NCBI GenBank assembly: GCA_017506865.1
Contig: JAFCMP010000514.1
Span: forward strand, 62,001-126,000
Direction: 5' to 3'
Source of the DNA: Tribonema minus
Taxonomy: Eukaryota > Sar > Xanthophyceae > Tribonematales > Tribonemataceae
Length of the DNA stretch: 64,000 bases
Shown here: positions 23,604 to 54,346 of the stretch, in pieces
How positions within the stretch are numbered: the first letter of the stretch is position 1
How the letters are laid out: each line of letters starts with the position of its first letter
Notes under the pieces: generated by a model
What the model was told of the DNA's origin: nothing
What the model saw: only the letters and a program-made list of their open reading frames with translations
The model's database searches: none
Program-made: the position numbers and the translations under genes

Positions 23604-23668
23604 TCAAGAACTTGCGTGTAGCCCCTCAAACCAAGTTCTAATGACGGTGATCAAGAACTTGTCATCGC
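23576..23668 (-). repeat. 47-bp tandem duplication at the end of the protease gene
   Basis: On the - strand CAAGTTCTTGATCACCGTCA...GGGGCTACACG is followed at once by a diverged second copy (CAAGTTCTTGATTGCCGTCA...). The protease stop codon lies at the junction. Confidence 0.85.
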
Positions 23669-23831
23669 CCTTGAGCTCCGCGTTTGCTTTGTTCAGTGCG
23701 AACTTGGAAGCGACGACAGCAGCTTTCGCCGTCTTGTTCATCTTCTTGAGCCTCTTGCTGAAAGACTTGAAGTCCTCCATGGTGGTCGCAAGCAGCTCGT
23801 CGCGGAAGCCCTACACGTCCTTGTCTGTGAT
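23604..23831 (-). CDS. PREP: PreP last exon with in-frame TAG
   Basis: It reads ITDKDV, a TAG at 23813-23811, then GFRDELLATTMEDFKSFSKR and VVASKFALNKANAEL, as the PreP C terminus does. Gln (CAG) would fit at the TAG. The frame ends at TGA 23606-23604 inside a tandem duplication, so the last residues differ from the family. Confidence 0.75.
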
Positions 23832-26800
23832 CTGTGGACGAAGAAAGAGCACACACAGCATGCACGGCTTCTTATAGCAGAGGCCTATAAATGTGATCAT
23901 TGCAAGACCGTCGAGCCAGCCCCGACAGGGCATACAGCTGGCTAATATCGAGCCCCAGAAATTTCTATAAATGATCACATCAACAGCACACCGAAACAGA
24001 TTACTTCAATCTGCTGTTGCATACCCCAATAACGTATGTGATGCTGCCAGTGGGAGGACCTGGTGAGGGGCGCCTGGAAGCCGACACTTCAACAGTTGAC
24101 ATTATCCGACGAATACATACAGTCAGCATCGCAAAGGCCTGGCGGGCCATCAGCGTGTAACATGAACATATACTAGACTAAGGGGTACACAGCCGCCTCA
24201 TACTCTGAAGTATTATTCAAGCGAACAAATTGAATAAAAAGTTAAGTTATGTTTTGGAAATATGAGTTTGAAGTTGGTGGTGCGTACCCCGGTCAGGTGA
24301 CGCCGAAGGCTGAGGAGCGCCTTAGAGCCGACAGTCTGGGGCCGGTCGAGACCGCTTATGGTGCCAATCACGAACGAATCCAAGTCGTCTGCATACGGGG
24401 CAACATGGATTGCAGCGGGTTGAGAATCATGGTGAAATCCCGCAGTACAGGCCGTTGTTGAAGGAACCATTATGAAGGCAAAATGCAGAGGATGACAAAT
24501 ATGTAGACTGTATCTGACCTCTTTGCGGAGGCGCCGACGGCGCCACACGGATTGCGACAGGTTCAGACTTGAGACGCATAGTGACATCTTCAAGGTGCAG
24601 CCACATGTTGAGCCCCCGAGAGGTACATGTGGAAAAGAGAGAGAGTATCGTAGTATCATGTAACAGGCTGCCGCCTCATTCAGAGCGGCATCACACACAG
24701 ACGGGCTGGCACGGAGATCACGTACGAATACAAGTGCGCTGGGGAGATGACGGTGCAGCACGGATGGCGGCAGGTTGGATGGCGGCAGGTTGAGACCTGT
24801 TGCAATTTTGCTGACTTGTCATTCCAGGTGCAACTATACAAAAGTAATACTACAGAAGGACCAAATAAAAGGAAGAAGCTGAAAGAAACCGCCCCTTAGA
24901 GAAAATGTGAGCCTGCTGCATTCTAAAAAAATGAAAAATGCAGAAAATATTTGAGAAGTAGCTCAACTGTACAAGCCAAGTGCTTTACATACACAATATA
25001 AATATACGCATGCAAAGAACACCCCCCCTGGACAGGAAGTATGCAATGGGCCACAGTATTGAGAGGCTTTACCAACTACTTGAAGTATGAAACTCAGCAG
25101 CCAGTGCAACTTGACGACGTACTTTTGGGCAGCGTCAGCCCAGCCAGGTGCGCAGCCGCCTTGTCGTACGTTTCCAGCGTCGACAGCACGTTAGGGTCAC
25201 GGTAGGACGTGAAGGTGAGGATGCCGGTAGCCTTGTTGAGGTTCGTGTAGGCACCGTAGGCCCCGGTCTTGACGCGGACGTTGTCCCACAAATAGGGGTT
25301 GTTGAGGTACCTGCCAGTGCGGCGGGGAGAAGGGGAGGCGCAGGGACAGTCACTGTGGTTATCAATGGCAAAAAGAAGCTTGTGCTCTTGGTATGTTGAC
25401 AGCATGGCGTCGCATAAGCACCACATAAAAGTTGCACAAGCGGCATGTATTTTAGCATCATGGGGTGTCCGTCCCGCAGAAAGTGACTTAAGTACTAGTG
25501 TGTAGTAAAGAGCTGAGAGCCTCGCATCCTCCATGTTCATTTCTGTAAGTTGCTTGCGCAACGTATCACAGGGGAGCCCCAGCGGTGGTGTGCATGCTCA
25601 GTCACCACGCATCTCAAGGCATGCCACATGGGTAATGGGACACGGGGGCTGGGAATTTGGCATCAAGATAGACATCAAGATAGACAAAGTGTGCAAATTC
25701 TTGTCATGATGTCACAACAGAAAGTCATGCATGCAAGAACCCAAGGTGCACTTCCATTGGATTCACACACCTCAAGTGTGAATACTTCGAAGTATTGTAC
25801 ACGCCAGGTTGATTCATTGCTGCCTGATCACACTCCTTCGCATAAGCCTTGTTGATGCTGTGTTTGAAGCTCAACTTGAAGTAATGCCTTCCTGACCCAC
25901 CTGGACACAACGCTGACACTGCCTGAAACGTGCTCCCCAGGCTCAAACACGGGGCCGCCCTTGCCGACGTAATTCACCTACAAGAGGTGACATGCCAAAA
26001 GTGCAAGTCACAAGGCGTTGTGATGATCACGTGGAGCACTGAGCCTAGCATGGAAATATACAAGGGAAACGCACATGTGAGCCTCTCAGCTATCTCTTAC
26101 ACCAGATCGCAAGCTTCTTCTTACCATCGTTAATCATAGGTTGTTGTCAGGACAGTCCTAGTAAACCGCGCACATAATCAACCCAAGTGAACTGCGTCAA
26201 GCACATTCAATCATTCAACTTGCTGTGCTTTGCAAGCCTTTTACATACTTCTCAAGTATGCATCACAGCGGGGTTGGGGGGTGCTAGGTCTTGGGTGTAG
26301 GATCACAATCCGCTGAACCTTGTGTGTGTGGTGGGTTCACTTGGTTGTCAGAGGAGGACTCCTTTGTGGACATCACATGGTGCAATAGCTGTAAAGCTGC
26401 ACATGTTCGCTGGTCAAATACCAAGAGATCGTGAATCAATGCTCTGCTTGACAAAAGTGCCTCTGAACTACCACAAACATTGAACTTTGAACACGTGTGG
26501 TCATGCCTTTCATACAGGACTCACACGGGTTGCTAGCAGCACGCATATGCATACTTCTACGCCAGTTCATTCGACACTTAGCATGGCACTCAGCCATGTG
26601 CTCGGGTAGCACGGGCCTACACATGGCTTGCAGAGCTGCAGCCAACAAGAGACAGACAAGTGCAACACCGAATAGATGCATCGCACAAGCACCTGCAGAG
26701 CATACTATGGCGTATGTGCTTGGAGCGGAAATGCTCGGCAGCACAGCCCGCGCAGTGTTGCCGTTGCGGATAAGGCGCTGTTAAGACCGCACCACTCACA

Positions 26801-29619
26801 TATGTTTGATGTTTGCATGAAGGTACAACCAGCCTGCCCATGGCCACAAGTATTTAGGGTTAGGGTGAGGGTCAGGGTTATGGGTACGAGAACACGAGTC
26901 CAGCCAAAGTGATGCATGCTTCATTGGCTCATTGTACAATGAGATGTGGCTACCGCATGATAATTTGTGATAATTAGTCATGACAGCGCTGCTGTGCACT
27001 CAATCACTGTTCCACCGTCACTGCTCTCAAGTTACAACATCGCCTTCAGTAAGTACTGTCGGGAGAGAGCCAAGCGTAAAGCATACTGGTGATACTTTTC
27101 TCATTACTGGTGCGCTTGGCTCTGTGTCCTAAGCTAAATGGTTGCCATGACTACGATTAAATATATATTGATGACTAAGTAAGTAACATGAACAAAACAA
27201 GTACTCTGTGCACGTTGCAAAGCAAAAGACCAGGAGGAAGTCTTACCGCCATATGTGGCAAAACCCTTGTTCCTGATTGGCGGAACCTTGATGCAATGCA
27301 CACAACGAGGACCATACTTGTGACACTTGTACTAAGGCCCATACTGTGCGTGCTGCAATGTAGAAGGCACGGGGAGTGCTTACCGCTGTTTCTGTTGCAA
27401 AACCATCGTTTCTGATTGGCAAAAGCTTCACGTCTTTTGCCCAGACGGTGCTCCCCTTGGTCCACTTTGCTCCGGCTGCACCAGGCCAAGAGGTGCAAGC
27501 AGTCAGCGCCAAATGTCACGATGGCGCTGCCCTGAGAAAACAAGCAGCTTTAAATTGCAAAATGATGCTCGCTGCATTTTGCATAGCCCGTCAGGGCTCA
27601 TCCGGCTACAATGTATATGCACTACCAACGTATAAAGTAGTACTTCTTAGGGCTTCGATGGCGTTGCTTTTCAGCTGGCGCTGCGACGGGCCCTAGGTAT
27701 TGAGCTCTCCACGCCATGCAGCCGTCTCTGCGGCAAGAGTTCTGGTGGCTCTCTGCACGCTCGCTTCTGTCAAGCTCCCGCAGTCGAGGGGCATGGCACC
27801 GTGGCGCACAATAGGATGCGCGGCGCGTTACTGAGGCTGGCGCAGCAGTACTTGCGTGTGCGCATAGCGTTGGACACCCGGGCGCATTTCTACACTCGCC
27901 ACATCCGGGTGCGGGAGCTGCTGCCAGTGCGCATGGACCTGGTGTTATCAATTGCACTCTTTCCTGCTGACCGTGTGAGGTGACCCTATGCGCCACCTAC
28001 CATGCATGATCGACGCCAGTTGCGTGGAGGTGCAGTGTGCTAGTAATGTGGCGCGGTCAGCCGCGGACCCGGCGGCGCCATGACATTGTTCAGCGCCAGC
28101 AAACCAAGACAAACCACTTTTCGCGTCATTTTGACGCAAAAATTCCTGTACCCTTGCCACAGCGGCGTCTGATTCCTGTGGCGTTGGTGACGGACAGGGC
28201 CGCGCTCATCCACGTCATGACGGAGGAGTTTGCAGAGCTTTCAGGCCCCGGCTCAAGGAGCTTAAGAGCTTTGCAGTCGCAACGATGAGGGCTGCGCTTT
28301 CTACTGCGCTGCACGTGGGGGTGTCGCAACGGGTCATGTCCTACTAGCAGTACTTGGCTGCGCCCCCAGTCTCATGGTGGTGCTGTTCAAGTGGGATCGG
28401 GGGCAGCGGCAGCGGCAGAGGAGGCCCCTTCTGAGTCCCATCTGTGTATAGCTTTGTGAGAGTGTTTGTGTATGCTCGAGATATCCCAGCGGGGAAAGCA
28501 TGCACGAGCTCAACAGGGCATACGTGTTGTATACGACGTGCGGCCATACATAGGGTTTTCGCTTCAGGCCTGCGTTTCCGGGATTGTAAGCTTGCGGCTC
28601 ACCGGGGATCTGGTTGATGAAGCTGCGCAGCGACGGCGTCGCAGCAGCGACAATGTCTTTGTCACCTGAAGCAGCACCAGTATGCACAAAGAGAGCAGCA
28701 CAGCAAGGGGCAACGGCGGTGGCAAGTAGAACCAGGCCTTCAGTGAGGGCACACATTAAGTTCGCATGTGAACGTATCAGGGCGAGGTTGAAAAACCACA
28801 TGTGTGTGCATGGTAGGCAGCTGTCATGACTATCTGGTGTCAATCGCGTGGGGTTATTATATCTGCTCAAATTATGATGGTAAGCCGCCCACTCTTTTGG
28901 CAGGCTTGTTGGCAGGAGTATACTGAAGCCCGTCAGCCACTGTAACTTTTAGATGCGTCCGGGCAGCACCGCGGCTCATTACAGTTTCTGTGTCCGCTTT
29001 ATACACACACATGATTCTTCGGGAGGCCAGCAGGCGTAATGGGAGAGAAGACGGCACGTATTTGGAAGGAACGCGCCGCTGTGGCGCTGAGCACTGTTGA
29101 CTACATCACTTGACGCTGCGGTTGACAAACATGCTGGACCCCGCACGACCCGCGCTTACACATGCTTTCATCGCATACGTGCTAGAGCCCTCGGCCATGT
29201 GTTCAGCAGGACACGCGGCGCTGTGAGCGCCAATCGACGGCATGCGGCACCAACTGATGATTTGGCAAACTGCTGGCCCGCACTGCCACGTACTTGTGCA
29301 TGCTAGCTTTCGAAGTGCATGAGGATTCCGGCCAGCCGTCCGTCGCATCCCAGATCATGCGCATCATGACAGTTTTATTATGAAGTCAGTCAGCCTGCCA
29401 CTACAACCCATATGTGGCTTTGAAAAGCGCCAGTTACCATTACACAGGATGTGCCGCTGTTGACACACGGCGCTGTGTGCGAGGTCCAGGCCCCCTGCAG
29501 CTACAAGGGGCGATCATCTCACACGGTGGCGGCATTCAGAGATCAATACATGCAGGCATCGTGATACTGCATAGGTGCTCTGCTTCAAATGAGCACCGTC
29601 TGTGTGTGTGTGCGTGTAG

Positions 29620-29700
<81 letters not shown>

Positions 29701-32700
29701 GGTCATTTTTTTCCAGCACTCAGTATCTTCTAATGACAGATTATAGCACCTACCGCTGATGTTGACGATCATGTTGGCCCGCGCGATGACAGTCTTGCGC
29801 ATGCTCTCCAGGCGCTTGAGGACCTTGGGCCAATTGTCCTTCACGTCCTGGGTGATGCGCTTGTTGGCAGTTACGGCGCCTACACCGGTGGTCAGGTCAG
29901 GTAACCCTGGAGGGAGTAGCGCCCCTCTATGTGGTTGTTCGCAGCGTAGTCGCCGTCGTTGGCAACCCCCTGCTCTAGCCTGCACACGGCAACGCCAGTC
30001 GATCATTGAGCTTCATTCACCACTCTTGGATCTCTGACCGGCAATCTCCGTTTGCGCTTCATGCGACACATGGGATCACAGTGAGTACCAGCGCCTTCTA
30101 TTAGGTTATGGCCCTATGTCATTGTCACTGTTGCATGCAAAGGTCACAAGTGATGTTTGTATTTCTGTAGTAGTAGTTTTGCTGTTCGCTGTGCCTCCAT
30201 GCAGTATACTGGTTTGTTTTAGTGGAATGAGCCCCGTCGGGCAAACATGGATTAAGAGCGTATGTGTAGAAACTACTGCCTCATGTGTCAGTGCTGCATC
30301 AGTGTCCTGACCAAGCGCTTGGACTTGAAGTATATAAATGTTCGCTGCCCATTATCATAGCCTGTTGGGGCTCATGTGCCTGCTGATACTTCAAGAGAGC
30401 CACACCTCACATTGTGTGTATCCCGGCTGCTTCTGCTGCTGCTGCTGCTGCTTCTTTTGCTGCCGGGGCTGGTTTTACTGGGCTTACATATCTGTACACA
30501 ACATTGCAATGAAGTTGCGCCAAACTGAAGTTGAACTCGCTCTGTCTACCGCCCGCTCAACAGGTCCAGCACGTGCTGCCATGTGTTCATGCGCACTTTT
30601 GCGTGGCAACCAGTCCCATCATGTCATCTCATGATACCGCACAGGAGTTGAAGTGAAAGTGGACAAACTGTGTCGGCCACTCACTCAGCAGGTCCAGCAC
30701 TTGCTGTCGCAGATCCAATTGCTTCTAGAAGCGTTCTTTTGTGGCCAATAGTGCCATCGTGTCGTTTGGTGATATTGTTTGAGGCTGACATGAACTCGGA
30801 GATGAAGTTGAGGCAAAGTTGAAGTTGAAGTCACTTTCTCTGCCGCTCGCCAGCAGGTCTAGCGCGCGCGTTGCCGGGAGTGTAAGCGTGCTTTCACCAG
30901 CGCTATCATAGTATCCTTCGTGATCATCATGACATTTGTGATGAAGTTTAGGGTGAACATGAACTTCAAGTTAGAAACTCACTCTGTCTGCCGCTCACTC
31001 AGCAGGGCAAGTGCGCGTTGCCTCGAGTCCAAGTGGGCTTTCGTGGCAGCCAGCGCCATTATGTCCATGAGCTTGGGGCCATGCGCCGCAAGCGCCTGGC
31101 CTCTGCGCAAATTCAGACAGACGAAATCAACATGATGGGGGGGGGGGGGAGATGCGTACTGCTAAATCAAACCTGCATGTTCATGGTTGTAGGGTGCCGA
31201 CATATATGTATAGCCCCACAATATTTTGATGCCGATGCCGACCCCGAAATGGAGTCACGTCTTGCAGCAGTGCGCGCGTCATTCATGATGTCTTGTAGGG
31301 GTCTACAGGCCACTGTGATCAAGAGCAAGACACCATTTAGTGATAAACACGCGTTCTGCGCAGCATTGACTCATCGGATGTGGAAAACTCCAAGGCAACA
31401 GCATACATAGCTCGACAGCAAGGCGGGCCCCCCACACTGCAATCTACTGCTGGAGCATGCTGCCAGCCATGGCAGCTGGTTGCACAGTTACACACTGGCA
31501 GTTACGCCCAATCTGGCACAGCAGTCACAGCCTGTGACTGAGTGTGCCACCAACGGCCTGCGTGCTTCGAGCACAAGCTCCCTGTGGTTATCTGCTTCCC
31601 GGAAGTTCCTTGCACGTATACCTCGAGGTACTGTGCTGCACGCTATCACTCATGCGCGGGCATCCGCTCTGCTACACGTACTTCGAAGTACTTCAAGGCA
31701 GTGCTGCACGCCGTCACTCATGTGGAAGCTTCACCCTCAGCGCACATGCATGGCTGACCGAACCTGCTCAGGAGGTTGCCTAAGGCCACGGCGTCCTTGC
31801 ACTCTCTCAAGGCGATTCGAATATGGGTGCCCGCTCTGCTACTAGTACATGTATGGTTCGAAGTGCAGTTCTGCACGCAGTCACTTGTGTGGACCTCCAA
31901 CCCCAAGCGCACACGCATTGCTGGCCGTACCTGGTGAGAAGGTAGGCCACGGCATCTGTGCGCTCTCCGATGGAGACGTTGGGCTTGTTCTTGGTCCCGG
32001 TTAGCACTTGCGTGGAAATGCCCCCGGTCTGCTCGTCCGTACGCAGTGTGGCAAGAAAGCACAGTGAGCAGTGCATCAATTGCTTGCATACGCCTTGCAG
32101 ACTTTTTTTTGAAGGAACTTGTTTTAAAAGTAATTTGCAATGATGATCCCGGCCCGCAGACTATCATAATTATTTAAGCTTGCACTAAGGCGTTGTGCTG
32201 CCAGATTTCAAGATGAATTCATGGATTGGGCGCGGGTTGCCAGATACCGTGGGTATTGTTTCCACACTTTCCAGTGGTCACCCTTTCCAATGCCCAATTA
32301 TCTCCTGTGGCCACATTCAAGTTGCTTGCTCCTTCCGTTTGCCTTGATCATTCCTTGCACAGGGCCATGGCTCTACCACAAGCATCGGTGTATTATTAAG
32401 CTTCAGCTCTTGCCCCTCCTCCTGCCCTTGACAATACTGTTGTCCCATAGCATCAATTTTTCACGGTTGACGTTACGAATGATCGGAATCGGGCTTGAAA
32501 TTGAGGGTGCGCATAGAACAGCAGGCCTGCGTGACCTCACACAGACGTTGAATTCTGCAGGTACGCCCTGAGGGGCAGGACAACGTAGACTCGCACGGGT
32601 TCAGGTTGTAGATAAAGGGGTACAGACTGTTGCACAAACCCTGATGAGGCATGAATATGTGACACGAGCATCTTGTACAAGCTGTCATCTCACTCAGGGC

Positions 32701-42866: not shown

Positions 42867-42898
<32 letters not shown>

Positions 42899-45800: not shown

Positions 45801-48800
45801 CAGTAAAAGTGAAGCTCTAGAAGCGGATTTGGCTTTGAGTCATGGCTGATGCAGGTGACGACATCACAACCGCCTGGTGTGTCTGTGAGACCTCGGCGTT
45901 CTTCAGCTTGTCACCAGCCCTGCATGGCGAAGCGCATGGCCCAAATATGAAAATGCAACAAAGTGCGCGAAGCTCTAGGTCCTATTGCTTACCCATCGTC
46001 AGCTAAGGGTATGTTGTTAACTGCCGCTTCAGGGACAGAAACCCTAGGGAAAATGCAGGGTGTCATGCAACTACGAGTGTATGCTGTGTGCTGTGAATGC
46101 GGAGTGCTGTATGAACCGCATACAGGGGTCAACTAAAGGCAAGCAGACAGTTCAAGCGAACCAACTACATGCAGGCATCAAGCGGGACATCATCCGCCGC
46201 AGCCCCTACTAGTACCCCTATCCACCCCTCATTGGTACAGCTAAGAGTACTTCAAGTTGCCCCCCCTTGTTACGCAAGCGTTGTCTGATCACCAGACCAA
46301 GATGATGTACAGCAATGATCTCAGAATCGGTCAGATGAGCGCCGACCGTTGTGCCGGGCTATGAAATATGTTAGTAGGTACTTTTGATGAGGAACACTTC
46401 GGAGCTGACGCTGGTTTGCCCTTGTTTGGAAACCAGTTTGGTTGAGGAGGGTACGTCAGCTAATGCGGGGTGGGACCTGTACAGCCACGGTGACCGTTGC
46501 GCACACCTGATTGTTGGCAGCGTTGGAGTTGATGCGGGCCATTTGTGTTGTCGTAAAACCAGCGTTATACTATGTACTGATAGCTGCATGAGCCCTGACG
46601 GGCTATGAAAAGACAGCAAGCGTCCATGTACAAGCTGCCGGTTCGCTCAAGCGGCGTCACACACAAACACGCTGACATGGCAGTTTTGCTCTGGGGAATC
46701 TGTGCAATGGGTTTTCAGAAGAATCAGGGAGCGCAGTGTGCCTCATCCACATGTCGGCCAAGGCTTGGCGCTTGCAAGACTGCTCGTGCTAGTCAAGAGC
46801 GATCGGAGCGTACCTACTGGGGGGATCCGATGCACGCGTGACACAGGTGTCTCACTTTGAAGCAGATGACTGCAGCATGAACCTCATGGCGAGTGCAAGC
46901 GGGAACAAGCTATAGCCCTCTGGTGTCAGTCAGAACCAGAAGGCAAATGTGGTCAGCAGTTCCTGGCAAAATTGCTGCTTTGAGCATCTTTACTTAGCAC
47001 GTGCCGGGGGCACTGAGATGCTATTGTAGCTTGCCAGACTCCTTGATGCCCAGCAGGCGGCACATCGTGTGCATATCTTACTTCTACTAATTTGAAGTAT
47101 ACAAAAGTGAAACTTGACTTCTGTCACAGTTACGCCGCCCTGAGTGAGGCAACAGCATGCCCACAAATGATTGCCTCCATGTTCACAGCCCGTCAGGCTC
47201 ATCCAACTATAAGCAGATGCCGGAGCTAGGGTACTTGATTTGCGTCATTGCTGCATGGCAGGGCGTGCATTAACAAAGTGAAGAGGAAGATCACACTTGT
47301 GTGCTCGAAACACATAAAAATCGCACACATGTTGGTAGTCTACATTGCCACAGGCCATTCAGCGCCTTCAGTACGCAGTACTCTAATGATGCTGCGCTGG
47401 GTTGCCAAGTGGTTCTTATCAGGGAAAAAAGGCACTGAAAGAGAAACACCAACACAACAAGTGATACTTCCAATTATTACATTTTTGGAGTGTAAGAAAC
47501 AAACTGACAAAAGACCCAATATGTTACAACATCCGCCGGTACTTTCAAGCAAGTCCAAAACAGTGATAACACCTTCATACAGCTTTCTGCACTGACCTCC
47601 TGCTGCAGCCTGCGAGGATCCTTGATGGCCAGCGGGTGGAGCACAGCGTCCATGTAGATGTCCACCAGGTTGTAAAAATCCTGCGCCAGCAGAGGGGGGG
47701 GGGGGGGGGCGACATCAAGCGCATTGAGCGATACGCTCACATGCATGAATGGGAACAGGTGAGGAAGTCGTAAACTTCTCGGCTGGCGCAGGGTTGGCCC
47801 ACCAACAGATTCATAGCACGACCACTGCAAATACCAATTGTAGCATAATATCAAGTTCCAAAAACAGCAATAAAACAGGTATGTACGTGCTGAGGGTGTT
47901 GAAGACATGCTCCATAGTGTGCACATGAGAGCCATTCAGCGCGAGGCTTGGCACACGCATGCATGGCTGTGTGTTGGGAAGGTTTCAGGCACTGGTTACT
48001 TGTGTTGCATTCGCTGTCGAGCGGAAGTCTACGCTACCATGTATTCATGGAGGTGATTGCAGAACCGCAGTGTTTATGCTACTACTATGTACGCATTCAT
48101 GGAGGTGGTGCATATTGACGGCGTCATGTGACAGCTGCTGGAGTGCAGAAGACGCAGCGTGGGCGAAATCTGCATGTTGAACATCAATGTCTGCGCGCAC
48201 AGCAATAGCGATCTCATACATCTTTGTGAATGAGGTCCTGCGAATACAAACAGGCACGTGACTCTCTCACACAAACATGCAGCTTGTCTCTATTGGACAC
48301 AGATGGCTGCGCATAGGTTCAGGCAGATCTTGCAAATGTGTGGTTAGTAAAACCCGTACTAACACAACGCTGGTGGTTGCAGATACTTGAAGGTACCAAA
48401 GAGATCTGCTGGGCCACATGTGTGATCAGCGATGGTGAAAATAAGTTCACCCTGCTTGTGTAACAACGGAATCAAAACAAGGAAGCACCATCAAGAGCCT
48501 CACATATCAATTGTACATATTGCACTGCAAAGCTGTGAGACCCTAACCCGAACCCTTAATCCCTATCCCTATCCCTACTAGTACTAGTATGTACATATAA
48601 ACATGCACAGGTGATTGGACATTACCTCACTCAATGCATCAGAGTCAGTGGTCTAAACCATGATTGATCACACTGCTGTACATCCCCCTCATTAGTATAT
48701 AAACACAATATAATGCTCGTCTGCCTCGTCAGCTGAGTGCTCACCTTCAAGTTCAGGCTGGGCACCAGGTACATGGTGAAGTCATCGTACGTGAGCGCGT

Positions 48801-51800
48801 TCAGGAACGTCTGCAGCGAGCGCTGCGCGACTCAAAGAAGCAAGCAAGGTGACACACTGTCAGCATAGGGTGCCACCACTTGGTCCACGTGGGCTGCTTG
48901 GTGCATGTGCTTCTGGCGTCAGCATAAGTGCCTAAGATGCCGATGGTGCCCGGGGCAGCTGTGGTGCACCATGGTAATGCCTATGCAGTTCTGGTTGAGG
49001 GTCCTTGTGAAGTTGGGGGACCTGACAGGCGCTGATTGGACTGAGGCTCACACTGTGTTTGTCATGTATGGGCGGGTTGCCCATACGGCCATACCTTTTT
49101 GGACAGCCAAAGAGGTCTACTGCGATGGTGCAGGGCCTGGGTTCGAGTCACCTTCAGGTTGTGTGTAGAAAGGTTTGAAGTGAAAACCACCTGACAGTGT
49201 CAGCCTCGGCTACATGTGGCATTTAGTGTACACGTTAGCACCAGAGTTGAGTCCCTGATCCCTGATCACGGACCCGTACCTTCATCCATGGCGGTGTGCC
49301 AACTGCATCACCACTGCGGTCTACTGCATTAGGATTGCAGCCACCGCAGTTTGATAGTACGACTTGAAGTTGATGCATGCCACTGGCCAATGTTCAGGTG
49401 CAACCCAGCTCCACAAGTCCTGTACTTTTACAGTCAGTGGTCGGTCATCGTTTGGTCGCCATGGCTGCAGGCTGCAGCATGCCATCGCTTTGACCAGTGG
49501 TCAAAGCGACAGAACATTGAATGCCCTGGACTCAAGCTAGGGAAACGCGGTGCAGGCTGCCTCACGGCTAGCCATTGGCATGCAATGACGAGCAAAGCAG
49601 CACAACGGCCGTGAGTGGGCAGGTCGCTGTGGTCCCTTTACATTTGCAAGTCATGTGAGGAAGCAGATGATAGTTGGCAAGCGCACAGAAACTTTGAATG
49701 TGAGATGATGATTATCAAAAAATTTACCGATTCAATAAATTTACCGATAGACTCATGCCCTTGAAGCTACTGATGGAACAAAAAAAGGTGAAAGTGCTTG
49801 ACTGTATACTTCAAGTATGTACTTGCAATAGTTGTCCAGACAGCATAAGCCCAGGGCAGCTGCTCTAGAGAGGCTAGCACTGCTTGCTACAAGAGTGCAC
49901 CGGGGCTTTGAGCACTGCTCACTACAATTATACCTGGTTCTTGAGCACTGCACACTACCAAAGCACCTGTGACACCTGGCTTGCACTGCTCGCTACAATT
50001 ATACCTAGGTTCTTGAGCACTGCACACTACAAAAGCACCTGTGACACCTGGCTTTTGAGCAGCAGCAGCAGCAGCTGCTGCTGCTGCAGCCATCGTCATG
50101 TATTTGCCGCAAGTTCTCCTAAGTAGGGCTGACCACGGCAGTACATCAGTCAGGAAGCCACTGACAGCACTGCTGTCAACGATGCCACCCCAATAGCCAG
50201 CAGTAGCAGCACCAAGACCATGTGCCTACTGGAGTAGGTACATGAATACTGAATGGCGATATGTGCACCCTTCTAACTCGCCGCGTACCTCTGCTCAAGC
50301 CTGAGGAAGACTGAATGGTAAAGGGGAAGCGCTGTCTGGTGCCTGCCAGCAGTGCATCCCCCATGCGCCATGCGCAACTGTAATTGCACAGATGATGGCA
50401 GTGCTAACCACAACGGCAGATATGTTGTCATATGGTGTGTGCCTTGTAGCCACCTGCGGCGCTAGCACAGGGCAGCTGCTATCTTCTCAATAGCTCCTTG
50501 TTGTAAAGTGTCGTCACTTCATGCTTCCACATGGCTGCCAAGCGCTCTGGCCAGCCCCAGCCACGAACTTTCAGTTTTTATCCCAATCACAGGTCAAGTA
50601 CAGTAGTCTCACAATGACTTTATGGTATGGTCTCCATGTGAAGTACCCGGCACATGTATCAAATTCGGCAGATTACCATTACCTGAGATGAGCCCCGGCT
50701 TGCAGTGTTGTTATGATAAATGCAGCGAGCATATATGTAACACACACTGCCGCCTCACTCGCCGGGCAGTGTCACAGGAGAGCACAAAAAAGCGAGCCGC
50801 CAGGATATCCAAAAGTGCAACTCACCTGCCAGGGGATGATTGTGAGACTACTGTACTTGCAGACTAGGCTACTGCATACTACTACGAGTAAAATTTGCAA
50901 TTGCATAGAACACCAGGCCTCCTTGGGGCCTTCATAGATACAAGTCCACAAGTACTTGTCGGCTGCTACCCTTAGTCGGCAGGTCAGTCTGCAGCTATTA
51001 GTACCTGATCCTTTGTGCAAAGAAATTTAGCGCATGTATGTTCAGTCATGTTGAATGAGTTCGGCCTGCACAGGTACATGATACTGGTGCCAGTGGCACA
51101 CAAGTTGGGCATGCGGGGGAAGAATACGCCTGGTGCAATGCAAGCAAACTGGTTGCTGCTGCGTTTTCACTCCGCACACCTGCGGCCCCTCTGCGAAAGT
51201 TTCTATGTAGATAATGTGAGTGACCTCATGCTGCTTCAGGTTCACTCCACGCAAGTTCGGCAGGCATGTGGTGCTGCCGGACAGTGTGGCATGTTGCTGA
51301 GTGCCAATGCATTTGAATCGGATTAGCCCTACCCAGTAGTACCCAAATTGTTACACAGCAAAACACTATAGTATACGCACTGCCGCCTCACTCAGGGGAC
51401 TGCAGCAACACACACGAAGGGCGATGACATGGGGTTTGTATCCCTCTCTGCCCTCGGAGTCAGTGCGCTTGCCTGCATTGTGAGGTAGACAACCCCACAG
51501 TGCACTGCAGCTATGAATGTATGAACACACGTGCAGCAGCAAACGCGCAGTTATCTGACACGTGCATGGTATGTGACAGGCTGACAGCAGTGCTACACAC
51601 CTTCGGCATCTCAGTATATATACTTAAAAGTTGAAGCACTTCAGCGCCCGGGGCGTGCGGTGCCAAGCACCAGTGCTGGTTGGAGGTACCAGTCACTTCT
51701 GTGTTACCAACACCTGCCAGTGTAGGTCCCTAAAAGGAAAGTTGCACTAGAACGATCCGGATTTCATGAACCAGCTCTTGCTATACGAATTGCTCTAAGT

Positions 51801-53482
51801 GCAGCTGTAATGGTTGACTTTGACCATGCAAGACCAGCCCTCTGTTTTTTGTTTGGCACAAAACAGGAAAGCATCACTATGCCGGATCATCAGGCAGAAC
51901 AGCCCATGCGGCTATAGTATGTATACACAACGGTACGGCCACGCCCACCTTCAGCATTTCTGCGAAGGGAGCCTTCAGGGGATACTTGGTGCTGCCGGCC
52001 AGTGTAGCATGCTCAAAGACGTGCGGCGCGCCGGCATCATTCTCGGGAGGGGTTCGGAACCCCACACCAAAGAGCTGCGAGGGCACAAAGGAGCAGCGAC
52101 CAACAGCAGCATTGATACATAGAAGTATAAAAAAATTGAACACGCTAAGCTATAGTATACAGACTAGTCTGTGGTGCATTCTAAGTGTGAATATGCGAAG
52201 CCACTAGTGGTACACTGTAGACTGTGGTGCAACAGCAAGGGTGCAGGAGCCTGAGGGCAGCCTGCAGGAGACGTGCGACGCGCTGACATCATGCTCTGCC
52301 AGCGGACGTCACGGTGCTCAACACAGTGCTCAACACAGTGACTCCTCGCTCAGGAGCTGCTAGGACACAAAGGATGGCTGGCAGCGGCCAGGGCAGCACT
52401 CATTGCAGCGCTTCCACATGTGGAGCTACTGATTGTGGTGCAGCTGCGAGGGTGTAGGGCCTCCCGGGCAATATGGAAGTTCAATGTGTGGCACGCCAGC
52501 ATCGCTGTGAAAACCCCACGCCAAATAGCTGCGAGGGCACAACAGAGCAGCTGCAACTGGAATTAGCAGTGTTGTCGGGAAACACGTGTTACGGTGCCTT
52601 CCCATAAAAATTGAAGCTGCTGATTGTAGCGCAACAGCAAGAGTTACCTGGTACAAAAGAGCGTCAGTTTTCAGGTGCGGATGGAAGCCCCACAGAAAAG
52701 GGCTGTGCGGAAACATAAGAGCAGCAGCTACTAGTAGTACCAGCGCGCATCAACTTGAAGAGCGCACTCACAGCATTCGATACTGACTGCAAGTTTTCGA
52801 GAAGGAATTGCAAGAGAGCCTCTGAGGCGGTTGCCTCCATGTCAGAGCGGCAAAAGTTATTGTAGTACCAAAGGCCTCTGCAGAGCAGGTGTGGGAGATA
52901 ATCAGTAAGTTACAAAAGTACTACCAAGAATTAGTTCAGAAAGGCGATGAGGGCCACCGGGCCACTAGCAGTTGTCTCTGCCAGGGAGTGCGTCTCAGAG
53001 CGCCAGAGGTCCTACTATGCACCGATCGTCCTGGCCTAGTCAGATTGTGCGCACCTTGTTGTCGTCGTCAGCGACGACACTGAGCACCTCGGCGCCGCTC
53101 TTGATATGCACGTAAAGCGCCGTCTTCAAGCCAAACTCTGGAATGGTGTCCTCGTGGAGCAGCTCATACTTGGGATGTGCGGGCGCCGTCGCCGAAGCGG
53201 CCGCGGTGTGTTCAACAAGCTGGCTCAGCAGCGCAGTGCTCAGTAGCGCCGCGAGCTGCCCAAAGCGCAGCAGCACCTCAGGCTCAGGCTGCCGCTGCAG
53301 CCACGCATCTGCATGGCAGTCCCTGGTGCTAGACCGCGACATCCAAACAAGGGAATCATTGAATCATATGTCCATGCGTGTCTGTACTTATTAGTGGTGT
53401 AAGCATCTGGGGCATCTGCACCATAAATGGCAGCCGAGGCATGCACTGCAGATGAAGCTGTCCTCCTAAAACTCATGATCAT
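23604..53482 (-). CDS. PREP: Presequence protease (PreP, M16C zinc metallopeptidase)
   Basis: PreP degrades cleaved targeting peptides in mitochondria and chloroplasts. I place 25 exons by family motifs with agreeing splice phases: 53482-53388, 53322-53055, 52074-51949, 48822-48745, 47680-47597, 45252-45133, 43874-43659, 42272-42213, 41568-41405, 40881-40755, 40057-39995, 38803-38680, 38202-38084, 36925-36838, 35869-35723, 33373-33264, 32028-31931, 31102-30983, 29979-29754, 28665-28603, 27475-27384, 25977-25901, 25310-25123, 24388-24288, 23831-23604. One short exon between 35.7 and 33.4 kb is unresolved. The total is about 1,060 codons, normal for PreP. The zinc motif HVFEH, the distal Glu in SEMKG and the C-terminal R/Y block (WDNVRVKTGAYGAY) are present. 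Odd points: 30 kb length, a one-base shortage in three exons, and an in-frame TAG in the last exon. It is a functional gene with assembly errors, or a young pseudogene. Confidence 0.88.
24288..24388 (-). CDS. PREP: PreP exon 25
   Basis: It reads NDLDSFVIGTISGLDRPQTV then ALLSLRRHLTG, the family's IIGTIGxxDxPxxxxxKG block. Confidence 0.85.
24655..24725 (+). repeat. Dispersed hairpin repeat, copy 1
   Basis: It has GCTGCCGCCTCATTCAGAGC followed by GGCATCACACACAGACGGGC. It shares the family's GCCGCC...GGCGGC-type stem. Confidence 0.6.
25123..25310 (-). CDS. PREP: PreP exon 24: C-terminal substrate-binding block
   Basis: It reads YLNNPYLWDNVRVKTGAYGA and TFTSYRDPNVLSTLETYD. The Arg and Tyr of NVRVKTGAYG are the conserved residues that complete the peptide-binding site. 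Confidence 0.95.
25901..25977 (-). CDS. PREP: PreP exon 23
   Basis: It reads VNYVGKGGPVFEPGEHVSGS then VSVVSR, the highly conserved VNYVxK block of PreP. Confidence 0.92.
26075..26260 (+). repeat. Dispersed intron repeat B, copy 1
   Basis: It shares CATCGTTAATCATAGGT, a TCCTAGTAAA segment and TGCTGTGCTTTGC with 43170-43330 in the same order and orientation. Confidence 0.6.
26857..26885 (+). repeat. Telomere-like tract
   Basis: TTTAGGGTTAGGGTGAGGGT and further degenerate units, in a PreP intron. Confidence 0.75.
27235..27300 (-). repeat. Decayed copy of PreP exon 22 end
   Basis: On + it reads CTTACCGCCATATGTGGCAA and TTCCTGATTGGCGGAA, matching CTTACCGCTGTTTCTGTTGC and TTTCTGATTGGCAAAA at the real exon, including the splice donor. 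Confidence 0.75.
27384..27475 (-). CDS. PREP: PreP exon 22
   Basis: It reads GAKWTKGSTVWAKDVKLLP then IRNDGFATETA, joining in phase 0 to VNYVGKG of exon 23. A decayed copy of its end lies 140 bp further along. Confidence 0.8.
27545..27620 (-). repeat. Dispersed hairpin repeat, copy 2 (half)
   Basis: The - strand carries GATGAGCCCTGACGGGCTAT and ATGCAGCGAGCATC, the left half of the family. Confidence 0.55.
28188..28344 (+). repeat. Coding-like repeat C, copy 1
   Basis: It shares AGGGCTGCGCTTTC, ACTGC(G/A)CTGC and GGAGGAGT(T/A)TGCAG with 44461-44635 on the opposite strand. The + strand reads AALIHVMTEEFAEL. Coding-like sequence also lies before it (27.80-27.98 kb, LLRLAQQYLRVRIALDTR). Family unknown. 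Confidence 0.55.
28603..28665 (-). CDS. PREP: PreP exon 21 (short)
   Basis: It reads DKDIVAAATPSLRSFINQIP, completing a Gly split with exon 20 and matching the PreP helix before the P-rich linker. Confidence 0.8.
29617..29700. repeat. (GT)n microsatellite
   Basis: Nearly pure TG repeat of about 80 bp in the intron just past PreP exon 20. Confidence 0.97.
29754..29979 (-). CDS. PREP: PreP exon 20, one base short
   Basis: It enters as LEQGVANDGDYAANNH, HIEGRYSLQGYLT and, one base off after ACCTGACC, continues as AVTANKRITQDVKDNWPKVL to MIVNIS. The length is 226 where 227 is needed; one more C restores the frame. Confidence 0.75.
30535..30930 (-). repeat. Three decayed tandem copies of PreP exon 19
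   Basis: Units begin at about 30535, 30672 and 30837 and align with the real exon at about 30980. Each has a form of CGCTCACTCAGCAGGTCCAG and a TGAAGTTGAAGT-type intron flank. Divergence from the intact exon is high in all three. Confidence 0.8.
30983..31102 (-). CDS. PREP: PreP exon 19
   Basis: It reads GQALAAHGPKLMDIMALAAT then RQRALALLSERQTE. It is the only intact unit of a four-copy tandem array. Confidence 0.8.
31625..31830 (-). repeat. Decayed copy of PreP exon 18 with its intron flank
   Basis: On + CCACGGCGTCCTTGCACTCT stands for CCACGGCATCTGTGCGCTCT of the real exon. The flank also recurs (CATCCGCTCTGCTAC / GCCCGCTCTGCTAC), showing a unit of about 170 bp. Confidence 0.75.
31931..32028 (-). 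CDS. PREP: PreP exon 18
   Basis: It reads TGGISTQVLTGTKNKPNVSI then GERTDAVAYLLTR, the PreP TGGI motif region. A decayed copy follows at about 31.78 kb. Confidence 0.88.
32638..32725 (+). repeat. Dispersed hairpin repeat, copy 3
   Basis: It has GAGCATCTTGTACAAGCTG, then TCACTCAGGGCGGCGCAACT. Confidence 0.6.
33264..33373 (-). CDS. PREP: PreP exon 17 (exon 16 unresolved)
   Basis: It reads IPLSDYPLVGLFSNMLTETG then ALNQLELSQRISTY, the start of the C-terminal lobe. It needs a phase-1 exon before it. Decayed-looking candidates for that exon lie near 34.53, 34.87 and 35.24 kb. Confidence 0.85.
33405..35722. other. Intron region with unresolved PreP exon 16
   Basis: A coding-like - strand piece at 34878 downward reads VAGVEVLKHEPDP after an acceptor, resembling the expected VxVLxHxL motif. 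Pieces near 34.53 and 35.24 kb share CTGAT(G/C)CG(T/C)AT(T/C)GT. All look degraded, and none fits both phases and motif. Confidence 0.4.
35723..35869 (-). CDS. PREP: PreP exon 15: interlobe linker
   Basis: Forty-nine codons, IKNTIAQTKALKDWQ then AALATLPRLSLSDVN, the helical hairpin and LATxPxLxLSD motif between the two PreP halves. Confidence 0.88.
36620..36720 (-). repeat. Decayed copy of PreP exon 14
   Basis: The - strand reads ETGADKQVAAKLAGKSCKAP against KTGADEREAAKLAEIKAKMM in the real exon, followed by a similar donor region. Confidence 0.8.
36838..36925 (-). CDS. PREP: PreP exon 14
   Basis: It reads VTVDLKPKTGADEREAAKLA then EIKAKMMPK, the PreP stretch before the interlobe linker. 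A decayed copy lies about 200 bp further along. Confidence 0.85.
36926..38083. other. PreP intron with + strand ORFs
   Basis: It contains a hairpin-repeat copy and two similar segments (CGTTGTGGCAGAGGTGTCGC at about 37530 and CGTTGTGGCAGAAGTGTCGC at about 37709). Open frames on + at 37.3-37.7 and 37.8-38.1 kb have no recognised family and are probably repeat-derived. Confidence 0.4.
37022..37150 (-). repeat. Dispersed hairpin repeat, copy 4
   Basis: The - strand has GGTGAGCCCTACCGGGCTAT and ATGTACAAGCTGCCGCCTCA, with both halves of the family about 90 bp apart. Confidence 0.65.
38084..38202 (-). CDS. PREP: PreP exon 13, one base short
   Basis: It reads DPTLNLHLVDAFSEIIKQF and then, after a shift near GTTACAAG, YKYFIANTH to the donor. 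The length is 119 where 120 is required; one more T in the TT run restores the frame. Confidence 0.75.
38205..38485. repeat. Intronic tandem repeat, unit about 115 bp
   Basis: Three diverged units each hold GCAGCAATGCA-TTCAGCTC and GACGCATTCA...GCAGCATATG-type segments, next to PreP exon 13. Confidence 0.7.
38680..38803 (-). CDS. PREP: PreP exon 12, one base short
   Basis: It reads RAAIQALINSLQFA in the entry frame and then, one base off, PASLGFLQQGLDLLESVMIQ to the donor. The length is 124 where the flanking phases need 125. The shift falls at GCCTCCC, where one more C would restore the family frame. Confidence 0.75.
39406..39431 (+). repeat. Telomere-like tract
   Basis: Three clean TTAGGG units and one TTTGAG in a PreP intron. 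Confidence 0.8.
39995..40057 (-). CDS. PREP: PreP exon 11 (short)
   Basis: Twenty-one codons, VDAVEKLILGTLATVAKTGF plus E, equal to the family's helix ending in GFD/E. Phase 0/0 with good splice sites. Confidence 0.8.
40755..40881 (-). CDS. PREP: PreP exon 10
   Basis: It completes the split Ser and reads PLMKALTDSGLGTAPTGNGY then GIFTIGLLGVKPSQ, the PreP SPLxxALxxSGLG block. Confidence 0.9.
41405..41568 (-). CDS. PREP: PreP exon 9
   Basis: It reads RRYPATYSVADASTTEHVV and VNWVLN...LSILEDLLIGS, the start of the second M16 half of the N-terminal lobe. Ends in phase 2, matching exon 10. Confidence 0.85.
42213..42272 (-). CDS. PREP: PreP exon 8 (short)
   Basis: Twenty codons, YFKKYDKNDADVSTTATQLQ, continuing VDA of exon 7 as in PreP. 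Acceptor gtgcag, donor CAG|gtacat, phase 0/0. Confidence 0.75.
42327..42368 (+). repeat. Telomere-like tract
   Basis: Mixed TTAGGG/TTTAGGG units next to PreP exon 8. Confidence 0.8.
42867..42897 (+). repeat. Poly-G tract of 31 bases
   Basis: Uninterrupted G run in the intron between PreP exons 7 and 8. It is C on the transcribed RNA sense of the gene. Confidence 0.95.
43170..43330 (+). repeat. Dispersed intron repeat B, copy 2
   Basis: It has CATCGCTAATCATAGGT, CCCTAGTAAA and TGTGCTTTGCGAGC, matching the copy at 26.1 kb. Confidence 0.6.
43659..43874 (-). CDS. PREP: PreP exon 7
   Basis: Seventy-two codons including LFPDTAYRFNAGGNPAVIP and YHPANSRVFFYGNDP, strongly conserved in PreP. Phase 0 at both ends. 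Confidence 0.92.
43980..44030 (+). repeat. Dispersed hairpin repeat, copy 5 (partial)
   Basis: It has GCACAAGCTGCTGCCTCACT then GAGGGCGGCGTG. Confidence 0.6.
44461..44635 (-). repeat. Coding-like repeat C, copy 2
   Basis: The - strand reads STAMAEEYAARERSDFG and FRAALSTALQMQLSQRVM, similar to the + copy at 28.2 kb. The frame is open for about 90 codons. It lies in the intron between PreP exons 6 and 7. Family unknown. Confidence 0.5.
45133..45252 (-). CDS. PREP: PreP exon 6: distal zinc ligand
   Basis: Forty codons starting GWHYELEKASDPLTYQGVV. The Glu in SEMKGVYS is the third zinc ligand. It uses a GC donor (AAG|GCAAGT). Decayed copies lie at 45.36 and 45.84 kb. Confidence 0.92.
45363..45450 (-). 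repeat. Decayed copy of PreP exon 6 (first)
   Basis: On + it holds GTAGTGCCAGCCCTGCATGC, as in the real exon and acceptor (GTAGTGCCAGCCCTGCACGC). Confidence 0.85.
45843..45945 (-). repeat. Decayed copy of PreP exon 6 (second)
   Basis: On + CATCACAACCGCCTGGTGTG and CACCAGCCCTGCATGG match the real exon's CATCACAACCCCCTGGTACG and its acceptor side. Confidence 0.75.
46590..46680 (+). repeat. Dispersed hairpin repeat, copy 6 (fullest)
   Basis: It has GAGCCCTGACGGGCTATGAA, ATGTACAAGCTGCCGGTTCG and GCGGCGTCACACACAAACAC in order. Confidence 0.7.
47120..47215 (-). repeat. Dispersed hairpin repeat, copy 7
   Basis: The - strand has GGATGAGCCTGACGGGCTGT and TTGCCTCACTCAGGGCGGCG. Confidence 0.7.
47597..47680 (-). 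CDS. PREP: PreP exon 5
   Basis: Twenty-eight codons, DFYNLVDIYMDAVLHP...RRLQQE, the conserved helix after the active site. Acceptor gcgcag, donor GAG|gtcagt. Confidence 0.92.
48540..48578 (-). repeat. Telomere-like tract, reverse orientation
   Basis: CCCTAACCCGAACCCTTAAT followed by CCCTAT units, in a PreP intron. Confidence 0.7.
48745..48822 (-). CDS. PREP: PreP exon 4
   Basis: Twenty-six codons, RSLQTFLNALTYDDFTMYLV..., equal to the family's SLxTFLNAxTYxDxTxYxV block. Phase 0 on both sides. Confidence 0.9.
49905..50056. repeat. Tandem repeat, unit about 75 bp
   Basis: Two copies share CTACAATTATACCT, TTCTTGAGCACTGCACACTA and AAGCACCTGTGACACCTGGC. Confidence 0.9.
50062..50087. repeat. Perfect (CAG)n/(CTG)n palindrome
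   Basis: A 26-bp perfect palindrome of CAG units meeting CTG units, able to form a strong hairpin on either strand. It directly follows the 75-bp tandem repeat. Confidence 0.9.
50690..50780 (+). repeat. Dispersed hairpin repeat, copy 8
   Basis: It has GATGAGCCCCGGCTTGCAGT, ATGCAGCGAGCATATATGTA and CTGCCGCCTCACTCGCCGGG. The right stem arm has changed. Confidence 0.65.
50865..50965 (+). mobile_element. Short 3'-end fragment of an RLE-type LINE
   Basis: GACTAGGCTACTGC, TTGCATAGAACACC, AGGCCTCCTTGGGGCCTTCA and ATACAAGTCCA match the 3' end of the LINE at 62.25-62.34 kb with moderate divergence. A 5'-truncated relic within a PreP intron, as expected for target-primed insertion. Confidence 0.75.
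51236..51300 (-). repeat. Decayed fragment of PreP exon 3
   Basis: On + TGGTGCTGCCGGACAGTGTG matches TGGTGCTGCCGGCCAGTGTA of the real exon. Confidence 0.65.
51375..51425 (+). repeat. Dispersed hairpin repeat, copy 9 (partial)
   Basis: It has GCACTGCCGCCTCACTCAGG; the second stem arm is altered. Confidence 0.55.
51949..52074 (-). CDS. PREP: PreP exon 3: zinc-binding HxxEH
   Basis: Forty-two codons beginning FGVGFRTPPENDAGAPH. HVFEH is the inverted zinc motif of M16 peptidases (two His ligands and the catalytic Glu). STKYPLKAPFAEMLK matches the PreP sequence that follows. Confidence 0.92.
52240..52720 (-). repeat. Cluster of decayed copies of PreP exon 3
   Basis: Segments at about 52265-52295 (AGACGTGCGACGCGCTGACA), 52340-52385, 52475-52555 (ACCCCACGCCAAATAGCTGC) and 52660-52720 (AGCCCCACAGAAAAGGGCTG) align with parts of the real exon and its acceptor (ACCCCACACCAAAGAGCTGC). 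Confidence 0.75.
53055..53322 (-). CDS. PREP: PreP exon 2: N-terminal core
   Basis: It ends HEDTIPEFGLKTALYVHIK...GAEVLSVVADDDNK, the conserved first strand pair of PreP, spliced at AAC AAG|gtgcgc into exon 3. Confidence 0.85.
53388..53482 (-). CDS. PREP: PreP exon 1: start and transit-peptide-like segment
   Basis: ATG at 53482 begins MIMSFRRTASSAVHASAA, rich in Ser/Ala/Arg with no early acids, as in organelle transit peptides. The donor at 53387 leaves phase 2, which fits exon 2. A second in-frame ATG lies two codons later. Confidence 0.6.
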
Positions 53483-53619
53483 GAAACTTTTATTATAAAA
53501 GCACCTTGCTTAGGACACCCAGAGGATTACTGTATCCTGTTTCCAACTAGTGGTACCATGATCACCGTATGGGCATCAACTGGTGGCCCACTGGGCCCGA
53601 GGGGCAATGGTAGCTGAGG

Positions 53620-53850
53620 CTCATGAGCACGCACACATCATGACGAGGACCTGGTGTGATTGTGAAGCTCACACCAAAAATTTGTGAAAGACTGTTACAG
53701 TACTTCAAGACCCCATCTAGCATTTGAGTGCAAAGACGTTGTTGCGGAAGCGGCCGCGGTGTCACACGCCGTGGTGGCGCAACAGCGGCTGCGGCTCGCG
53801 CAGTAGCGCCTTGAAGTTTCTGCGCCCACGCATCTGCCAGTGCATGGCTG
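53620..53850 (-). repeat. Decayed copies of PreP exons 3 and 2 upstream of the gene start
   Basis: At 53620-53690 GAAGCTCACACCAAAAATTT recalls the exon 3 acceptor side. At 53735-53850 AAGCGGCCGCGGTGT and CCACGCATCTGCCAGTGCAT match exon 2. They lie before the first exon, so the duplication reached beyond the start. Confidence 0.65.
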
Positions 53851-53938: not shown

Positions 53939-54346
53939 TTCAACACTACTATTATAGCTGTTGCATGTACATGGTCCAGACTTTCACTTGCAGATGCATC
54001 ATAATGATCATGACCATGCGCTTCATCATGATGGCACGTCCATTGTCAATCTTGAGGTGCGGCCACCGGGCAGGCGCTTGCGCACGTCCACCAACGACTG
54101 TTAGCACACTATGGCATTCGCGCTCCACATTCAATTTGGAAAGTGTGTGAATCCACCTACAGTCCGAGAGTGAGGGTCTTCAGCTCACTGACAGCTGCAG
54201 CCATGGCAATGAAGTGTCTCAGACTGGTTGACAGAGTCATAATGCTTCAGTGTGCCTATTCGTAATAGCTATGCGGCAGTGTGGTTACCGTATTAGATGA
54301 GTCAGTCTGAGGGCTTCACGAAGCTGTAAAGTTTCACACATCGCGT

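Follow-up and report, generated by a model that had tools for sequence, protein, structure and literature searches.

Decayed copies of exon edges in the neighbouring introns of a predicted PreP gene of Tribonema minus

The PreP gene and its paralogs

We analysed a stretch of 64,000 nt of the Tribonema minus genome (158 Mb, 554 contigs), which comprises positions 62001–126000 of the contig labelled C511 and is hereafter called the window. On its minus strand lies a gene of 25 modelled coding exons (23604–53255, 5′ end uncertain) that, judged from profile and structure matches and from a colinear paralog on contig C82, is predicted to encode PreP (presequence protease, an M16C family metalloprotease). 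The introns of this gene carry decayed copies of parts of their own neighbouring exons, and the same was found in its three paralogs and in aminoacyl-tRNA synthetase genes elsewhere in the genome (the labels C82, C35, C201, C14, C235, C445 and C527 denote other contigs of the same genome).

The gene region has a GC content of 51–54% in 4-kb bins. Positions 43599–43895 matched structure 2fge (‘zinc metalloprotease (insulinase family)’, which we take to be of plant origin; E 4e-15) and structure 4l3t (‘Presequence protease, mitochondrial’; E 1e-11), and positions 25097–25597 matched PreP_C (E 1e-18). A profile search of the genome with PF08367 gave 16 matches, of which 15 were located on the window contig, C82, C35 and C201, and one, a weak match, on C14 (E 0.25). 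The genome holds four PreP genes, on C511, C82, C35 and C201: two diverged copies with long introns and two shorter ones.

The C82 paralog is full-length, and C82:219315–251725 was colinear with window 23057–53883 across both exons and introns, with 86% identity in exons and 74% in introns (in 50-column windows at least 60% identical). Beyond the PreP gene, comparison of 80 kb of C82 with the window gave short or repeat-like matches only. The C35 and C201 genes are shorter, and their introns did not align with those of the window gene. Seven exons of the window gene and their C35 counterparts had identical lengths (164, 127, 63, 120, 77, 188 and 101 nt). Exon lengths largely agree between the paralogs, suggesting that most of these introns predate the copies inside them. 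The exon models are based on conservation between the window gene and its C82 paralog; in the refined list, five of the 25 exons in the window gene and five of the 25 in C82 have one end without a canonical AG or GT/GC, and these particular ends are approximate.

The paralogs also differ in exon structure at two places. Exon 19 (29754–29979) is 226 nt long in the window versus 230 nt in C82, C35 and C201, and is followed by an in-frame stop; a disruption of the window gene or an assembly error may be the cause. The intron between exons 16 and 17 (32029–33263) is also present in C82, but C35 and C201 lack it and have a single 208-nt exon in place of the two; the difference represents an intron gain or loss.

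Decayed exon copies in adjacent introns

Each exon was aligned by the Smith–Waterman method with every intron of its gene on both strands, and adjacent introns were compared with non-adjacent and reversed ones. At a score of at least 130, the window gene gave matches in 9 of 48 adjacent comparisons, versus none of 552 non-adjacent and one of 600 reversed (24 exons). The corresponding counts were 6/48, 0/552 and 0/600 for the C82 paralog (24 exons) and 9/38, 0/362 and 0/400 for the C201 paralog. The C35 paralog showed a high background at this threshold (8/36, 17/306 and 19/342) and a clear contrast at a score of at least 160 (6/36, 1/306 and 1/342). Block-shuffled sequence yielded no direct pairs in five shuffles of each of five gene regions, and most copies scored above shuffled sequence. 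In four related aminoacyl-tRNA synthetase genes, a score of 125 was reached in 14 of 30 adjacent flanks, 2 of 30 reversed flanks and 30 of 1185 comparisons with unrelated stretches, the last serving as the distant control because these genes are mutually related. A copy was found for nine of 15 Pfam-defined exons, a count that leaves out a sixth C445 match judged to be a copy itself, and three of the four sampled synthetase stretches showed copies. An earlier examination of the window by eye and open reading frames (the sequence-only reading) had proposed that introns carry decayed copies of their own neighbouring exons; this observation is real, and wider than that reading had it.

With the refined exon list and a threshold of 125, the window gene yielded 11 copies from eight of its 25 exons (1, 4, 5, 6, 13, 18, 19 and 21), all on the minus strand, like the further duplications described below. 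A copy of the 5′ part of exon 1 (53055–53255) lies upstream at 53714–53814 (score 137, identity 0.69; best of 100 shuffles 120), and a copy of nearly the whole of exon 4 (47597–47680) lies downstream at 47019–47096 (score 130; best of 100 shuffles 98). The acceptor flank and 5′ half of exon 5 (45133–45252) recur upstream at 45862–45939, with an identity of 0.83 to the C82 copy and 0.74 to the exon itself. The 3′ end of exon 6 (43659–43835) recurs downstream at 43553–43655 (score 133, identity 0.70), as it does in C82, and the 3′ part of exon 13 (36838–36925) at 36628–36698 (score 165; best of 100 shuffles 96), where no C82 counterpart was detected at the score threshold used. The 3′ part of exon 18 (30983–31102) is followed by an array of three decayed copies at 30541–30909 (30835–30909, 30669–30763 and 30541–30634; scores 171, 127 and 202), to which an array in C82 is related. 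Two copies of the 3′ half of exon 19 occupy 29114–29374 (29254–29374 and 29114–29225; scores 201 and 141), and most of exon 21 (27384–27481) is repeated downstream at 27252–27338 (score 134; best of 100 shuffles 88).

Self-blast of the window added copies at three exons. A second copy of the exon 5 acceptor region was located at 45372–45436 (83% over 66 bp, spacing 152), around which overlapping pieces of the window align to a single place in C82. At 31664–31786 lies a copy of 31831–31953, which holds the last ~22 nt of exon 17 (31931–32028, end approximate), the donor and ~100 nt of intron (70% over 123 bp, 78.7 bits, spacing 167). Exon 25, the final one, has at its 3′ end a 48-bp tandem duplication at 23568–23661 (87%; period 48 and 2.0 copies by Tandem Repeats Finder, TRF). 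A recent 72-bp tandem duplication at 49912–50054 is wholly intronic (95% matches by TRF, 96% by self-blast).

The sequence-only reading had named exons 2, 3, 6, 14, 18, 19 and part of 22. Its numbering could not be mapped one to one on ours. At exon 2 in the present numbering, the two candidates (scores 122 and 120) did not beat the best of 100 shuffles (123 and 121); for ‘exon 22’, a similar late-exon copy is clear in C82 (exon 23) and falls below the threshold in the window. Near the site of a further copy claimed in an oxidoreductase gene (11222–11295), we found a 35-bp direct repeat (11263–11297 and 11343–11377, 89% identical).

Copies carry the exon end that faces their intron

At a score of at least 125, the four PreP genes contained 52 copies: 34 downstream with the exon 3′ end only, 12 upstream with the 5′ end only, four downstream spanning both exon ends and two downstream internal (tolerance 10 nt). 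The synthetases, whose exon ends were taken as Pfam match ends (tolerance 12 nt), added 26 downstream copies with the 3′ end and eight upstream copies with the 5′ end, giving 86 copies, with 60 downstream 3′-end-only, 20 upstream 5′-end-only, four exon-spanning and two internal. Each one-ended copy carried the exon end facing its intron (80 of 80; PreP 46 of 46, synthetases 34 of 34). Since some copies are common to the window and C82 by descent, and an array contains several, these amount to fewer than 80 independent events. In most cases the copied block crosses a single exon–intron boundary. The exon-containing blocks that had been proposed are not supported: with 80 one-ended copies, whole-exon copies, as in tandem exon duplication, made up only four of the 86.

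A splice dinucleotide (GT/GC or AG) was kept in 37 of 43 copies that reach the junction. In 16 of the 50 copies (0.5 expected), homology of the intron flank past the junction at 60 nt exceeded the 99th percentile of random intron; in the other 34 it stayed within the range of the controls. The recognisable intron flank suggests that at least those 16 arose from genomic DNA and not from mRNA. The claim that intron flank was included in the copies is supported for approximately one third of them. The largest arrays lie upstream of C35 exon 9, with six copies, and downstream of one C235 exon, with eight. By eye, an acceptor with the exon start recurred in C35:276860–277540, and an exon end with its donor in C201:844880–845620.

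Genome-wide searches were made with three arrays. The window exon 18 array matched itself and C82 only, and the C201 exon 5 array matched itself and its own neighbourhood only. For the C35 exon 9 array (best 40 of 824 candidates scored), 40 of the 42 matches listed involved other places in the genome and a 50–60-bp non-exon piece; among the matches listed, the part derived from the exon occurred at its own locus only. Two of the three arrays were thus confined to their own gene or its paralog, and the third carries a dispersed piece of non-exon origin. That dispersed repeat (C35:277440–277497; L022 7440–7497) lies inside the exon-edge array and occurs at at least 40 other places, in both orientations.

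Decay and age of the copies

A frameshift or stop was present in 28 of the 34 copies that could be tested, the other 18 of the 52 PreP copies belonging to exons without a unique open frame as modelled. The mismatch at codon positions 1, 2 and 3 was 0.19, 0.23 and 0.30, respectively, indicating that positions 1 and 2 are not protected. The copies are degraded, as had been claimed, and the broken frames and codon-position rates led us to reject protein-coding copies.

Comparison of corresponding copies in the window and C82 gave a best cross-gene identity of 0.83 for exon 5, and 0.83 and 0.86 for exon 18. The exon 5 copy and two of the three exon 18 window copies were closer to the C82 copy than to their own exon. 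Such shared copies suggest that some predate the duplication of these two genes. The exon 19 copies were mixed, C82 copy 226110 having an identity of 0.80 to its own exon and lower identities to all window copies. Concerted evolution between the window and C82 was unsupported at exon 5 and most of exon 18, with exon 19 mixed. C35 exon 4 and C201 exon 5 correspond to each other; their copies had identities of 0.75–1.00 to the exon of their own gene and 0.62–0.79 to that of the other, suggesting that they arose after these genes parted or have been homogenised since.

Divergence from exon to copy was 0.20 in the exon-derived part versus 0.27 in the intron flank, and divergence from copy to copy 0.18 versus 0.28; this comparison is a weak test, because local alignment extends into random flanks too.

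Local direct repeats and possible intron turnover

Pairs of repeats of at least 38 bits within 1 kb were counted in 14 stretches (244 kb), eight being the window and paralog regions and six being five arbitrary positions and one at the weak C14 match. Direct pairs numbered 234 versus five inverted, in agreement with the claim of local tandem duplication; the six other stretches (60 kb) gave 86 direct versus two inverted, and the C445 synthetase stretch (15 kb) 77 versus none within 1.2 kb. Copy spacing peaked at 100–200 bp (91 of 234 pairs). Repeat density ranged from one pair in 9.9 kb (window 54100–64000, which holds long open frames) to 50 pairs in 20 kb. Some young copies abut head to tail (window 5525–5667, 49912–50054 and 54347–54446; stretches L028 and L026), and eight abutting pairs overlapped by 0–3 nt at the joint, one long array in L031 being left out. 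Purely intronic duplications were also present.

Visible local repeats accounted for 4.7% of intron bases in the window gene, 5.1% in C82, 19.2% in C35 and 29.0% in C201, and the mean modelled intron was 757 bp in C35 and 704 bp in C201 versus 1105 bp in the window gene and 1175 bp in C82. These values fall short of establishing that introns grew by duplication, the window introns having so small a repeat share and the repeat-rich C35 and C201 genes having the shorter introns. Turnover, with duplications offset by deletions, explains the data no worse than growth does, and we infer a steady state of this kind.

Other repeats were seen in the window and elsewhere. A dispersed repeat of ~90 bp occurs at window 62255–62340 and 50859–50953, C201:851988–852073 and C82:238561–238636, the first window copy and the C201 copy being identical over 86 bp. 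An inverted repeat is formed by window 16371–16808 and 17453–17907 (469 aligned columns, 78% identical), and window 17977–18258, close to it, matched two opposite-facing places in C82 at 84–86%; together they are possibly a foldback element. TTAGGG arrays stand at the start of contigs C2 and C3, and interstitial arrays are found too (C1, C2 and C3), the genome containing 5426 exact five-unit matches with overlapping positions counted.

A proposed mechanism and its rivals

The copies are probably the product of frequent short local tandem duplication, tolerated where the mature mRNA is unchanged and followed by neutral decay. Short local tandem duplication would occur throughout the genome at a very high rate, with a spacing peak at 100–200 bp, possibly by replication slippage or microhomology-mediated repair, and a new tandem copy would persist if the mature mRNA stayed the same. 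Blocks wholly within an intron would be neutral. A block running from the exon interior across the donor would leave the full exon and first donor in place, while a spare 3′ exon edge and donor would enter the downstream intron; a block across the acceptor would place a spare acceptor and 5′ exon edge upstream. Blocks inside an exon, or whole-exon blocks that would be spliced in, would mostly be lost under selection. The real exon would remain conserved as its spare copies accumulate neutral mutations, and arrays would result from a series of such events.

In a simulation of this process, tandem duplications with a median unit of 140 or 200 bp fell at random, copies decayed neutrally and selection acted on real exons only. 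The simulation reproduced the direct-only signal, the polarity and the core-to-flank ratio; exon-to-copy divergence was 0.13–0.16 in the core versus 0.19–0.25 in the flank, a ratio similar to that observed at lower divergence. Selection or gene conversion on the copies is accordingly not required, and is kept as a rival for a few arrays. The rate fitting the pair counts of C35 and C201 was ~0.004 events per site per 0.4 substitutions per site, which under this model would add roughly 1.6 bp of duplicated sequence per bp for every neutral substitution.

Several observations weigh against random duplication with neutral decay. Wrong-end copies made up 4–6% of simulated copies if whole-exon blocks were rejected (~20% in high-rate runs if they were allowed) versus none of 80 observed, and simulated copies reaching both exon ends 7–28% (whole-exon blocks rejected) versus four of 86 observed. 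Donor-side copies outnumbered acceptor-side ones by 60 to 20, while most simulations gave approximately equal numbers; the skew could be explained by splicing, which an upstream spare acceptor is likelier to disturb than a downstream spare donor, as in the potato case (PMC4974935). Many pairs of high identity do not abut, having a non-aligned spacer between them. No copy was found at the four exons of the synthetase stretch on C527. The arrays at C35 exons 4, 8 and 9 and at C201 exon 5 keep the exon part far better than the flank. Finally, the repeat families that touch an exon were 8 of 9 in the window, 6 of 11 in C82, 5 of 7 in C35 and 14 of 22 in C201, versus a simulated mean share of 0.24–0.37 (whole-exon duplication rejected) or 0.29–0.50 (allowed). 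The share in the window and C82 exceeds that of every simulated long gene (per-gene maximum 0.36–0.50). For C35 and C201 it exceeds the simulated maximum only with whole-exon duplication rejected (0.42–0.56) and not when allowed (0.82–0.83, high-rate runs), so that these two genes alone are not decisive. Exon edges thus seem to be represented about twice as often as expected, an excess that plain random duplication leaves unexplained.

Some of these points bear on a different process, one anchored on exon edges, in which splice junctions are favoured sites of duplication or local gene conversion from the exon keeps refreshing the copies. It would account for the two-fold excess of exon-linked families, the well-kept cores at the four exons just named and the lack of wrong-end copies among the 80. 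C35 copies, moreover, start at exon positions 86–91 of 127, with two of the four C201 counterparts at 85–86 and two at 71, and C82 copy 226110 is nearest to its own exon 19. Placement gives a different picture: exon-touching pairs numbered 11 in the window, 7 in C82, 15 in C35 and 24 in C201, versus 99th percentiles of 8, 8, 22 and 26 under random placement, so that the window gene alone exceeds it; with pairs restricted to an identity of at least 84%, C201 alone does so (10 versus 9). A simulation that loses blocks inside exons, however, expects fewer exon-touching pairs than random placement (ratio 0.74–0.80), and the excess stands out more when families are counted. An exon-anchored process is further opposed by the pooled core-to-flank ratios, which match the neutral simulation, by the exon 5 and exon 18 window copies that are closer to C82 than to their own exon, and by the purely intronic duplications, and we consider it unlikely. 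It is likewise unlikely, though conceivable, that exon edges are preferred starts of tandem duplication. A feature linked to the splice junction, such as nucleosome phasing, R-loops or replication stalling at exon borders, would then repeatedly copy the first or last tens of bases of an exon, together with the splice site, into the intron beside it, and introns would turn over as exon-edge arrays full of spare splice sites.

That the copies are functional alternative or mutually exclusive exons is very improbable. The retained splice dinucleotides (37 of 43) would be expected of such exons, and the PF00133 match C445:424414–424521 appears to be a copy of the exon at 424791–424931, with overlapping profile positions and an identity of 0.83; against this stand the frameshifts or stops in 28 of 34 copies, the unprotected codon positions 1 and 2, and the partial nature of 82 of the 86 copies. 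It is similarly hard to credit that duplicated exon segments gave rise to the introns themselves. An acceptor-straddling duplication did make a new intron in a potato gene, according to the part of that study available (PMC4974935), but many exon lengths and boundaries here recur in C35 and C201, genes with intron sequence that cannot be aligned to that of the window gene, and such an origin was rejected as unlikely for most introns. Transposon-borne or captured exon pieces, suggested by the dispersed piece at at least 40 other places in the C35 exon 9 array, are the least credible source, since that piece has no exon origin, the other two arrays used in searches stay within their own gene and, in one case, its paralog, and copies adjoin their source in direct orientation with strict polarity; a transposable element was judged unlikely for the arrays tested.

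Comparison with known systems

Known examples of tandem duplication over a splice junction are single cases. The present genome offers many junction-straddling events per gene, of graded ages and with internal controls (four paralogs, adjacent versus distant introns). Several questions thereby become testable: the frequency of such duplications, the choice by the spliceosome of the first among near-identical donors, the chance that a spare acceptor turns into a new intron or exon, and the pace of intron turnover. In annotation, copies may be mistaken for exons by profile searches, as appears to be the case for the PF00133 match on C445. Our literature search, made mainly in open-access sources with few subscription journals, found no title or opening of an abstract that describes genome-wide exon-edge arrays, which is weak evidence of novelty.

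At short range, direct repeats are known to outnumber inverted ones in genomes, and such close direct repeats are interpreted as tandem duplications that have decayed. The same excess is present here, but it is dense and has strict exon-edge polarity; other genomes are, to our knowledge, less dense in close direct repeats. Tandem exon duplication and mutually exclusive exons likewise place local exon copies in the neighbouring intron. Unlike those, the present copies are partial, mostly frame-broken and up to eight beside one exon, and whole-exon copies are rare.

Surveys of internal gene duplication in eukaryotes reportedly count duplications retained in the gene product, whereas the copies described here are exon edges that become intronic. 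The two are alike in that within-gene segments duplicate and can carry exon and intron (Gao and Lynch 2009, as cited in the available part of PMC4974935). The alga Haematococcus lacustris has a genome of 151 Mb with 47.3% repeats, mostly short and tandemly arranged, and an AACCCT telomere (PMC7617258). It resembles the present genome in size, in its telomere (TTAGGG arrays here) and in being rich in short tandem repeats; an exon-edge origin of the repeats is not mentioned in the available portion of that paper (PMC7617258). The nearest parallel in anatomy is the potato RdRp gene, in which a tandem genomic duplication crosses an intron–exon junction and, as in our upstream copies, includes the 3′ side of the intron and the 5′ side of the next exon with their splice signals. 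As far as the available text of that study goes, one event there produced a new intron and exon, whereas here there are many events per gene, mostly on the donor side, and the modelled gene structure is kept (PMC4974935).

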